DNA of 64,000 nt, taken from positions 310,001 to 374,000 of the forward strand of contig NZ_SEWG01000002.1 of NCBI RefSeq assembly GCF_004168255.1, given 5' to 3'. The notes under the pieces were generated by a model. The model was not told the DNA's origin, did no database searches, and saw only the letters and a list, made by a program, of their open reading frames with translations. Positions 12,479 through 32,431 of this stretch are shown here, in pieces. Both the position numbers and the translations under genes were made by a program. The number at the start of each line of letters is the position of its first letter. The stretch's first letter is position 1. The DNA comes from Mucilaginibacter terrigena. Lineage in GTDB: Bacteria > Bacteroidota > Bacteroidia > Sphingobacteriales > Sphingobacteriaceae.

Positions 12479-12483
12479 GTAAG

Positions 12484-12512
12484 AGTGGAGCCGGAGGGAT
12501 TCGAACCCTCGT
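12484..12512. other. Candidate attachment site at the ssrA 3' end
   Basis: The tmRNA T-arm and acceptor 3' strand (minus strand GGGTTCGAATCCC and following) is a typical integrase target. The integrase lies next to it and the AT-rich cargo stretches leftward. No second copy of this sequence is found between 1 and 12,240, so the partner att copy must be beyond the left edge. Confidence 0.5.
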
Positions 12513-12852
12513 CCAAACATGGTATAAGTAAAGCTTTCTACATGTTTAGCTGTTATTTAATTGTAGGGACTATGGAAGGTTAACCGCTTACCTGTACCTT
12601 AATCCTTAGGTGCTTTGTTTCGCTTGCTTACCACACCTTAAGCAGGCTATTCTCATTTTTCGATGCCCCAATTGCCGATCCAATGAGAAGGAAAACCGGC
12701 GGGACAAAAGCTATGCTAATTCTAAATTAGGCAGCTAAGGCGTAGTTATTTTCGCCATTTGTAAGTTTGAGCGTTCAGATTTAAGCGCTAATTCACACAA
12801 CGCGCTACATGCTTACTTAGTTATCTCCATCCTGTCAATTCCGGTCGACCCC
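12486..12852 (-). ncRNA. ssrA: tmRNA (transfer-messenger RNA)
   Basis: tmRNA rescues ribosomes stalled on broken mRNA. The 5' end GGGGTCG (top base 12852) pairs with the 3' acceptor strand CGGCTCC, with wobble pairs, and the T-arm GAGGG-TTCGAAT-CCCTC is complete. The tag frame ends GENNYALAA followed by TAA (12727-12756), the tag form seen in Bacteroidota. The CCA end is not encoded (ACT instead), so it would be added after transcription. The gene is intact although a genomic island abuts its 3' end. Confidence 0.95.
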
Positions 12853-30711: not shown

Positions 30712-30741
30712 CAAAAAATCCCGGCTTTTAGGGCCGGGACT
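30712..30741 (-). terminator. Attenuator terminator upstream of pheA
   Basis: On the minus strand, GTCCCGGC pairs with GCCGGGA around CCTAAAA and is followed by a T6 run, all before the pheA ATG at 30698. The 5' arm (30733-30741) can instead pair with GCCGGGACT inside the leader-peptide frame (30776-30784), giving a competing antiterminator. Confidence 0.85.
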
Positions 30742-30763
30742 TTTCAGTGTTTTGTATGTTTTG

Positions 30764-30814
30764 TTAGTACATATCAGTCCCGGCTCTTACTGGTAAAGTA
30801 AAAGTAGTAACCAT
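30764..30814 (-). CDS. pheA leader peptide (attenuation)
   Basis: This is a 16-residue peptide, MVTTFTLPVRAGTDMY, ending at TAA. It lies between a good promoter and an intrinsic terminator upstream of pheA. Codons 11-13 (GCC GGG ACT) form the antiterminator arm. A ribosome reaching the stop would mask it and allow termination, while one stalled at the early Thr/Phe codons would leave it free. The peptide has only one Phe codon plus a final Tyr, and three early Thr codons, so which aminoacyl-tRNA is sensed is open. Confidence 0.75.
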   Translation of the reverse strand: MVTTFTLPVRAGTDMY

Positions 30815-30855
30815 AAAAATATGTAGCTTGTAATTTCATTTTTTCGTTGTTGGCG

Positions 30856-30885
30856 TAAATGTACAAGTAAAAATCATTTTATCAA
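30856..30885 (-). promoter_or_regulatory. Promoter of pheA leader
   Basis: Minus-strand TTG (30883-30885), a 19-bp spacer and TACATTTA (30856-30863) fit the Bacteroidota -33/-7 layout with one -7 mismatch. The expected start near 30850 leaves ~35 nt before the leader ATG. Confidence 0.6.
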
Positions 30886-31018: not shown

Positions 31019-31351
31019 ATGAAAAATCTGAAACCATCTTTACTTGCCGTGTTAATGGCTTAGCCATTATTTACTTTTGCCCACGGGGAGGAAGTAATAT
31101 ATGTATTATTAATACCCGCTATCGGATCAGTTTTAATGCTAATCGCCATGTTGTTCATTAAGACAGAAACCACCACAAAAGGTGTGTTATTTGTCACCTA
31201 TATAATATCGGTGATAATTGTATTTGCCCTTGTTAGTAATATGCCGTTTAGGGAAAACCAACAGCTGATCACCGCTTTAGTGATATTTGTGCCTATAGGC
31301 TTGGTAATAGCTATGTATATGCTGATCAAGCGGGTTAAAGCTAATAACTGA
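31019..31351 (+). pseudogene. Small membrane protein with amber codon in its signal region
   Basis: From the ATG at 31019 the frame reads MKNLKPSLLAVLMA, then TAG (31061-31063), then PLFTFAHGEEVIY and three hydrophobic segments to a stop at 31351. The part before the TAG is a normal signal-peptide start, with the cleavage region just beyond, so a single nonsense change explains the break. The remaining open part could only restart at an internal ATG (31136), which would lose the signal. I do not recognise the family. It may be a recent pseudogene or a sequencing error. Confidence 0.7.
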
Positions 31352-31372: not shown

Positions 31373-32431
31373 TTACAACCCGGCGTAATACCTCAAACTA
31401 TCGCAAAGTTCATCATCGGTGCAGTTGTTATCGATGCTGTATTGGCCAATGTGCTTTAATAAAGTGCAGTTTATTTTACCGTTCTGGTTCTTCTTATCCT
31501 TAAGCATGTGCTCAAGTAAAGTAGGGAAGGTGCTCTCTTTTATTTTATAATGGGGATACAAACCATTTAATACTTGTGATATTTCTGCAAGTTCGCTGTC
31601 AGGCAATCCGATCTTTTTGTTTGAGAGCCAGGCCTCACAGATCATGCCGATGGCGATGGCTTCGCCGTGTGAGAGCGAATCTTCATCATTCATCAGCGAA
31701 TAAGTTTCAACCGCATGGCCAATGGTATGCCCAAAGTTCAACGCCTTGCGGATGCCTTTTTCATGCGGATCTTCAGTTACCACCTCGTTCTTGATCTCAA
31801 CCGAGCGGTGAACAAGCTCAATAGAAGGTAGGCTCAGGTCGCTGGTTTTTAGTTTGTCCCAGTAAGCGGTATCAACAATAAGTCCATGTTTTAGCATTTC
31901 GGCCAGGCCCGATAGTATCTGGCGGGCCGGCAGGGTTTTCAGGAAATCGCCATGCATGAACACCGCTTTAGGCTGCGTAAATGTGCCGATGATATTTTTT
32001 ATACCATCCACATCTACACCGGTTTTACCGCCAACCGATGCATCAACCTGCGAGAGCAGGGTAGTAGGTACCTGTACAAAATCTATCCCCCGTTTATAGG
32101 TTGAGGCCACAAAGCCGCCCATATCGGTAATTACGCCGCCACCCAGGTTTATCATCAGGGCTTTGCGGTCGGCGCCAAAATCTATCAGCATTTTCCAAAT
32201 GCCGATGCAAAAATCAATGGTCTTGCTTTCTTCGCCTGCGTTTACTTCAATAATATCAAAGTTATCTAAAACATCCAGTTGTCCCTTTACAATAGGCAGG
32301 CAATGCTCGCCGGTATTTTCATCTGTAAGGATAAAAACCCTTGAGTAATTCCCCTGTTTTACAAAGCTTACCAGTTGGGTTATGCTGTTATCAAAAAATA
32401 TAGGATAGCTGTCGCTTTGGATGGTTTGCAT
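31373..32431 (-). CDS. aroB: 3-dehydroquinate synthase
   Basis: AroB closes DAHP to 3-dehydroquinate, the second shikimate step, using NAD and a metal. The protein of about 352 aa from the ATG at 32431 has the NAD-binding run MINLGGGVITDMGGFVASTYKR, GGKTGVDVDGIKN, and the metal-site motifs GLAEMLKHG and NFGHTIGHAVE. The frame is open 13 codons further upstream, but the family starts near MQTIQSDSYPI. One base separates it from the stop of the S4-domain gene, so the two are translationally linked. Confidence 0.94.
   Translation of the reverse strand: MQTIQSDSYPIFFDNSITQLVSFVKQGNYSRVFILTDENTGEHCLPIVKGQLDVLDNFDIIEVNAGEESKTIDFCIGIWKMLIDFGADRKALMINLGGGVITDMGGFVASTYKRGIDFVQVPTTLLSQVDASVGGKTGVDVDGIKNIIGTFTQPKAVFMHGDFLKTLPARQILSGLAEMLKHGLIVDTAYWDKLKTSDLSLPSIELVHRSVEIKNEVVTEDPHEKGIRKALNFGHTIGHAVETYSLMNDEDSLSHGEAIAIGMICEAWLSNKKIGLPDSELAEISQVLNGLYPHYKIKESTFPTLLEHMLKDKKNQNGKINCTLLKHIGQYSIDNNCTDDELCDSLRYYAGL

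Follow-up and report, generated by a model that had tools for sequence, protein, structure and literature searches.

The window analysed here, a stretch of 64,000 nucleotides of Mucilaginibacter terrigena DNA, carries on its minus strand four genes of aromatic amino acid synthesis, and it raises the question of how these genes are controlled and which amino acid shortage is sensed. The first, pheA (30698-29769), encodes a prephenate dehydratase (Pfam PDT, 1.1e-56), in agreement with the initial annotation, and has an ACT-like C-terminal region which scored below the curated cut-off. It is followed by a gene encoding a fusion of DAHP synthase and chorismate mutase (29637-28510; Pfam DAHP_synth_1 and CM_2), by aroA encoding EPSP synthase (28404-27106; EPSP_synthase, 5.2e-83) and by aroC encoding chorismate synthase (26929-25832; Chorismate_synt, 8.7e-142). 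Their common strand and their spacing suggest that the four genes form one transcript with pheA first. The proposal of the initial annotation that pheA is controlled by transcription attenuation with a competing antiterminator found strong support. On the grounds of sequence and of folding models, the region upstream of pheA is very probably a ribosome-mediated transcription attenuator which reads the supply of both phenylalanine and tyrosine, and the aromatic genes would probably be switched on only when these amino acids are short.

The pheL-like leader ORF, recognised by its sequence and conservation, has 21 codons (MKLQATYFYGYYFYFTSKSRD) and runs from 30839 to 30774 on the minus strand, with the stop codon TGA at 30776-30774. 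Codons 7-15 read Tyr-Phe-Tyr-Gly-Tyr-Tyr-Phe-Tyr-Phe (YFYGYYFYF). Five of these nine codons are for Tyr and three for Phe, and the signal sensed is accordingly taken to be phenylalanine plus tyrosine, not threonine. A different leader peptide had been annotated initially, a 16-codon ORF (30814-30764, MVTTFTLPVRAGTDMY) which overlaps the true leader in another frame. This frame was rejected, its ATG being kept in 47 of 75 aligned Mucilaginibacter sequences whereas the 21-codon Phe/Tyr frame is kept in all 75. That the shortage sensed had been called unclear was a consequence of this choice of frame; the peptide that is conserved consists of a stretch of Tyr and Phe. Threonine sensing came with the 16-codon frame, which was credited with three Thr codons and actually holds four, and was rejected together with it. 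The expectation that relatives keep the leader frame and the pairing was therefore borne out, but for a frame other than the one first chosen. A joint Phe/Tyr signal also fits the operon, since its products lead to chorismate, prephenate and the precursor of phenylalanine.

The upstream DNA was examined at 198 pheA loci, which were drawn from 101 genomes of the family (87 with a match), from the best 80 loci of named contigs, and from 198 genomes of the phylum (172 with a match). Among the best 80 loci the closest named ones, by pheA, are Mucilaginibacter. A leader was scored when an ATG-started ORF with at least 7 of 10 codons for Phe, Tyr or Trp lay at most 300 nt upstream of pheA. Three loci with less than 250 nt of upstream DNA were omitted, and such an ORF was found in 188 of the remaining 195, compared with 3 of 1950 dinucleotide shuffles; the loci are related and the counts are therefore not independent. 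Two entries (L001 and L002) are both the window's own locus and both were counted, further loci are near-identical, and the 190 leaders, which include two further loci with an aromatic score of 6, comprise 180 distinct leader-to-gene sequences. The other five loci do not satisfy the rule: L025 has a leader with a GTG start, in L121, L123 and L137 pheA is internal to an operon and immediately follows an aroA-like coding region, and in L032 (Mucilaginibacter aurantiaciroseus), whose pheA is 94% identical, there is no leader and the end of another open frame is found there. Both Phe and Tyr are present in all 188 leaders, and Trp in some. As controls, 44 regions preceding hisG, trpE or ilvD in relatives all scored below 7 (one scores 6), and in the window such a leader precedes pheA alone among 35 ORFs with 200 or more codons.

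Within Mucilaginibacter the peptide YFYGYYFYF...SKSRD is strongly conserved and residues 2-5 are variable in the aligned sequences. In 71 Mucilaginibacter leaders of 21 codons, codons 7-9 and 11-15 comprise 568 cells, of which 567 are aromatic (326 Tyr, 237 Phe and 4 Trp) and one is Thr. Tyr and Phe are exchanged through the second codon base, and the changes are mostly such exchanges or synonymous. The peptides of other families are quite different and have the aromatic richness in common.

A Bacteroidota-type promoter is predicted upstream of the leader from sequence and conservation, with TTG at 30885-30883 and TACATTTA at 30863-30856 separated by 19 nucleotides on the minus strand, exactly as initially annotated. 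Transcription would start approximately 5-7 nt downstream of TACATTTA, about 10 nt before the leader ATG. Of 180 distinct loci, 153 have the pattern TTG-N17-22-TAnnTTT[GA] within the 80 nt preceding the leader ATG, compared with 37 of 1800 shuffles, and in 107 of these 153 it is located 16-18 nt from the ATG. The form with a final G, which is the one named in PMC9723704, accounts for 81 of 180 loci (11 of 1800 shuffles), and the window has the A form. A scan for sigma-70-type promoters, which does not cover those of Bacteroidota, gave 3 sites against 2.5 in shuffles. By eye, no Shine-Dalgarno-like sequence is evident before the leader ATG.

The RNA of the leader region can form alternative helices. 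Its minus-strand fold has an energy of -34.7 kcal/mol compared with -21.2 ± 3.3 kcal/mol in shuffles (z -4.09) and is better than all 200 of them. The helices were evaluated in two alignments. A1 consists of the window and 74 of the 76 listed Mucilaginibacter sequences (L083 and L107, with long spacers, omitted), and A2 consists of 77 sequences, namely the window, 71 of 76 family sequences and five Mucilaginibacter sequences (L018, L114, L140, L167 and L180 omitted for length or truncation). The intrinsic terminator (3:4), supported by fold and alignment, has a stem formed by 30743-30733 and 30725-30715 around the core GTCCCGGC (30740-30733) and GCCGGGAT (30725-30718), with six T at 30718-30713; the terminator with its T6 run had been correctly recognised before, and lies on the minus strand. 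In A2, 97.3% of its cells are paired. The antiterminator (2:3), also noticed previously, pairs GCCGGGACT (30784-30776), which overlaps the last codons and the stop codon of the leader, with AGTCCCGGC (30741-30733) in the terminator 5' arm, as indicated by complementarity and by both alignments. Two protector helices (1:2) complete the set. The outer one, P1, obtained from fold and alignment, pairs TACATAT (30825-30819) with ATATGTA (30774-30768) and encloses both P2 and the antiterminator segment. The inner hairpin P2, obtained from the alignment, pairs CTTTTACT (30804-30797) with AGTAAGAG (30791-30784) and covers the last Tyr and Phe codons.

Covariation of the two alternative stems had been put forward in the initial annotation as a check, and it was found for the terminator, where both sides have changed at 7 of 11 pairs. 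For the antiterminator the outcome is divided. Its pairing is kept in 91.8% of cells in A2 and in 99.9% in A1, where it is nearly invariant; covariation cannot be demonstrated within Mucilaginibacter because the segment hardly varies. In A2 its covariation score exceeds that of all shuffles, but doubly changed pairs are not above shuffles (3 vs 2.7). The two parts of P2 are paired in 94.8 and 97.9% of cells in A2, and at one of its pairs 58 of the 77 sequences have CG and 17 have UA. P1 is paired in 82.9% of cells with a change on both sides at 3 of 7 pairs, and its outermost pair is formed in only 30 of 77 sequences; in two family sequences (L172 and L175) it is apparently kept, by eye, with the quite different sequence CAAAC/GTTTG. 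Taken together, protectors and terminator are paired in 93.3% of A2 cells compared with 34-48% after sliding by 1-3 columns, and have 94 doubly changed cells compared with 31 ± 6 in shuffles.

Moreover, the leader end was allowed to bind its own or a swapped terminator arm at the loci with a terminator by the strict rule (20 of 27 from other families and 72 of 77 from the family). Its own arm was bound at -15.2 kcal/mol and swapped arms at -10.3 ± 0.6 kcal/mol in other families (n=20), and the respective values were -17.1 and -15.7 ± 0.2 kcal/mol in the host's family (n=72); none of 5000 permutations matched the own pairing in either set. Across other families the antiterminator sequences differ, for instance GAGACCT/AGGTCTC in L125 and GAGGCTTT/AAAGCCTC in L130. 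Of 190 leaders, 164 have a terminator that satisfies the strict rule; a relaxed rule recovers one in 19 of the remaining 26, and in the last 7 neither rule finds any. Among the terminator-less leaders are L167, with an incomplete sequence, and five of one genus label, g29 (L133, L134, L135, L195 and L198), and the mechanism may differ in leaders of this kind. An antiterminator with at least six contiguous pairs is present in 161 of the 164 strict-rule loci. In 15 of the 164 the stop codon precedes the antiterminator segment, which is kept though untranslated and is thus conserved as RNA and not as peptide. In 18 of the 164 the segment begins at least 20 nt before the end of the stop codon, and masking by a terminating ribosome is therefore less clear there.

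The effect of ribosome position was modelled with an assumed footprint covering 15 nt on the 5' side and 12 nt on the 3' side of the first base of the A-site codon. Before the terminator 3' arm is made, a ribosome at any of codons 2-15 gives an antiterminator probability of 0.96-0.99, which falls to 0.65 for codon 16 and to 0.00 for codons 17-22, so that the boundary between open and closed lies immediately behind the last Phe codon. When the ribosome stands at the stop codon, the antiterminator is at 0 and the terminator forms in the fold model. For a ribosome at codon 13, the model continues to form P1 at transcript lengths 72-84 (0.43-0.76), and the antiterminator reaches 0.99 at lengths 108-116 and 0.59 at 124. 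In the model, therefore, the antiterminator excludes the terminator and is exposed or masked according to the position of the ribosome. Without a ribosome P1 stands at 0.99 at lengths 76 to 100, and the equilibrium shifts to the antiterminator at lengths 108-116 (0.96-0.97), which makes the termination of untranslated leaders uncertain. In the full-length equilibrium the terminator wins at every ribosome position (0.92-1.00); the choice must therefore be kinetic, as in classical attenuation, and the model works only if the antiterminator is the first to form and then persists.

We infer from these elements that the leader is translated, that ribosome and polymerase are coupled and that the system responds to starvation, which would proceed as follows. 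RNA polymerase would begin some 10 nt upstream of the leader ATG, and translation of the 21-codon peptide by a ribosome would follow. When charged tRNA-Phe or tRNA-Tyr is short, the ribosome would stall on codons 7-15 and cover the 5' sides of the protector helices, leaving GCCGGGACT free to pair with the terminator 5' arm; with the antiterminator formed, the polymerase would read into pheA, the DAHP synthase/chorismate mutase gene, aroA and aroC. When both tRNAs are charged the ribosome would reach the stop codon, which overlaps GCCGGGACT, so that this segment would be masked and the terminator would form. If the leader is not translated the protectors would form first and may hold the antiterminator segment in a loop, which is the least certain step.

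The same RNA switch could also be operated by nascent-peptide arrest, in which the ribosome would be halted by the amino acid sequence of the leader inside its exit tunnel, with free Phe or Tyr possibly acting as a cofactor. TnaC-type systems are an example of such arrest. The RNA switch would look identical, and the strong conservation of YFYGYYFYF...SKSRD in the genus could be read in this way, but Phe and Tyr interchange at several positions, residues 2-5 vary, and the peptides of other families share little besides their aromatic richness. The conserved SKSRD end is explained by the RNA, as the antiterminator segment is retained behind the stop codon at the loci mentioned above, and peptide arrest is accordingly regarded as improbable. 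Still less credit can be given to an ordinary terminator accompanied by a chance short ORF, whose hairpin would end upstream or convergent transcription without controlling pheA. The hairpin is indeed terminator-like on the plus strand also, and a simple terminator scan reports it on that strand and not on the minus strand, we think because the stem was let run on into the T tract. Moreover aroB lies upstream on the same strand, but it ends at 31373, approximately 530 nt before the leader ATG, and the leader, promoter, protectors and antiterminator are conserved jointly in the family and beyond. Just as improbable is a functional small protein of 21 residues, or a peptide acting in trans, whose gene the terminator would set apart from pheA: a trans role has been proposed for an attenuator leader peptide elsewhere (PMC7298713), but here the N-terminal residues vary, the aromatic ones interchange, the length differs, and the C-terminal part is absent where the RNA is kept.

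The Phe/Tyr leader extends beyond the family. In the class outside the family a leader (score of at least 6, one with a GTG start) is present in 30 of 33 genomes examined. The three without it are those with internal pheA genes; 39 genomes had a pheA match, and the six left out include the three weakest matches. At L277 an ORF with a TTG start, located far upstream, was put down to chance and is not included in the counts. Outside the class a leader was found in 4 of 37 genomes examined of 127 (L118, L119, L128 and L290), three of them having been chosen because their pheA is among the best 30. In each of these four the match to the query is better than in other genomes with the same family label, and this suggests that the leader was transferred along with the operon. 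A covariance model gave one strong match (at least 107 bits) in each of 13 Mucilaginibacter genomes, in all 13 right before pheA. In other families of the class a clear match before pheA was obtained in only 2 of 8 genomes (G304 and G308) and a weak one in a third; matches of about 41 bits and below were set aside, except L319 (36.7 bits), which is located before a pheA.

The pheA (pheL) and trp attenuators of enterobacteria are the classical cases of ribosome-mediated attenuation. The element described here resembles them in having a short leader ORF in which codons for the product abound, 1:2, 2:3 and 3:4 helices and a T-run terminator, and in preceding the first gene of a biosynthetic operon. 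Enterobacterial pheL has Phe and is not known to have Tyr, whereas the Mucilaginibacter leader mixes the two, as do all the leaders found in relatives. The enterobacterial ilv (Leu, Val, Ile) and thr (Thr, Ile) leaders are multivalent, and the present attenuator would be like them in responding to a combination of amino acids and unlike them in that the pair is Phe and Tyr. It differs from enterobacterial pheA also in that the operon holds the DAHP synthase/chorismate mutase gene, aroA and aroC, in having no Shine-Dalgarno-like sequence evident by eye, and in matching no Rfam leader family. Indeed, none of the Rfam leader families searched (Phe_leader, Trp_leader, T-box and others) reached its gathering score in the window, and the best sub-threshold match, to Thr_leader, was rejected (25 bits against a cut-off of 55). 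The only family detected was tmRNA (RF00023), the gene of which is located elsewhere in the window, at 12483-12852 on the minus strand. The Bacteroid-trp motif (RF01692) had no gathering-score match in the window or in seven loci (five pheA leaders and the trpE and hisG regions of the same genome).

No description of a mixed Phe/Tyr leader was found in the literature searched. Surveys by Vitreschak et al. in 2004, some Bacteroidetes/Chlorobi included, and by Lopatovskaya et al. in 2010 reportedly sought attenuators across bacteria and may possibly hold an earlier one. The remark of the initial annotation that amino acid attenuation is little documented in Bacteroidota is fair, yet such control is not undocumented. 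Passages of PMC9723704 give strong clues for leader-peptide attenuation upstream of amino acid operons in Flavobacterium psychrophilum, and report a 5' element upstream of pheA conserved in Flavobacteriaceae; this kind of attenuator is therefore already known. That element is a transcribed, structured 5' region at the same gene in the same phylum and may well be a homologue of the one in Mucilaginibacter, while the leader peptide, its Phe/Tyr code, the switching helices and their covariation are what the present description adds to the account in those passages. Table 1 of PMC2864571 lists the Bacteroid-trp motif, by its name located at trp genes, as a probable cis-regulatory RNA of Bacteroidetes, and short ORFs reminiscent of leader peptides appear in passages on Bacteroides thetaiotaomicron in PMC7366714. 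A passage of PMC2965389, which in 2010 added Firmicutes, states that Proteobacteria and Actinobacteria were until then the only groups for which its authors were aware of a demonstrated leader-peptide system. To judge from our searches, what is new is the code mixing Phe and Tyr, the switch in its entirety and the breadth of its occurrence. The attenuator is fully specified and testable in a phylum where the control of amino acid synthesis is little explored, and it suggests that coupled transcription and translation drive gene control in Bacteroidota. Moreover, the dense natural variation of the leaders is a ready data set for attenuation models.

A wider reading, to which we give about an even chance, is that exchangeable TTY and TAY codons make an either-or Phe/Tyr switch, that in much of the Bacteroidota this switch represents the ancestral way of controlling the common aromatic pathway, with ribosome starts that dispense with a Shine-Dalgarno sequence, and that here the same operon may have to supply phenylalanine for both amino acids. 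The search for prephenate dehydrogenase in this genome gave at best 24.4 bits against a Pfam cut-off of 26.5, and matches barely pass the cut-off in 3 of 12 other Mucilaginibacter genomes. An aromatic amino acid hydroxylase domain is found in this genome and in 8 of the 12 others. It may be guessed that tyrosine is made from phenylalanine in this genome. The hydroxylase domain of this genome is located in an open frame of 593 residues; this frame and the dehydrogenase match are on contigs C3 and C4 (L339, L355).

In the gap between aroB and the pheA leader there is also an ORF on the plus strand (31019-31351) for a small membrane-like protein, which reads MKNLKPSLLAVLMA, then an in-frame TAG after 14 codons, then PLFTFAHGEEV and onwards. 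It is either a disrupted gene or one whose start is further in.

Other amino acid leaders were observed in the same genome and its relatives. On contig C6 (L226, 1291-1456) trpE is preceded by a candidate Trp-Trp leader, MKNTNLNTNWWHYVKTWQPDSF, and a strong terminator (z -3.16), with no Rfam family at cut-off for this leader; by plain count, 15 of 16 trpE loci have an ORF in which ten codons include two or more for Trp. Upstream of ilvD a simple rule revealed no convincing Ile/Leu/Val leader. On contig C9 (L208) hisG is preceded by a putative His-rich leader, MNGLNTYHLHLHHHHHVVIR. By eye no T-run terminator is evident in L208, and control of hisG may therefore be translational. His-rich ORFs precede hisG at all 12 Mucilaginibacter loci examined and in three genomes of other families (L199-L201, the last without an ATG), and the hisG genes of Mucilaginibacter appear to start with GTG or TTG.
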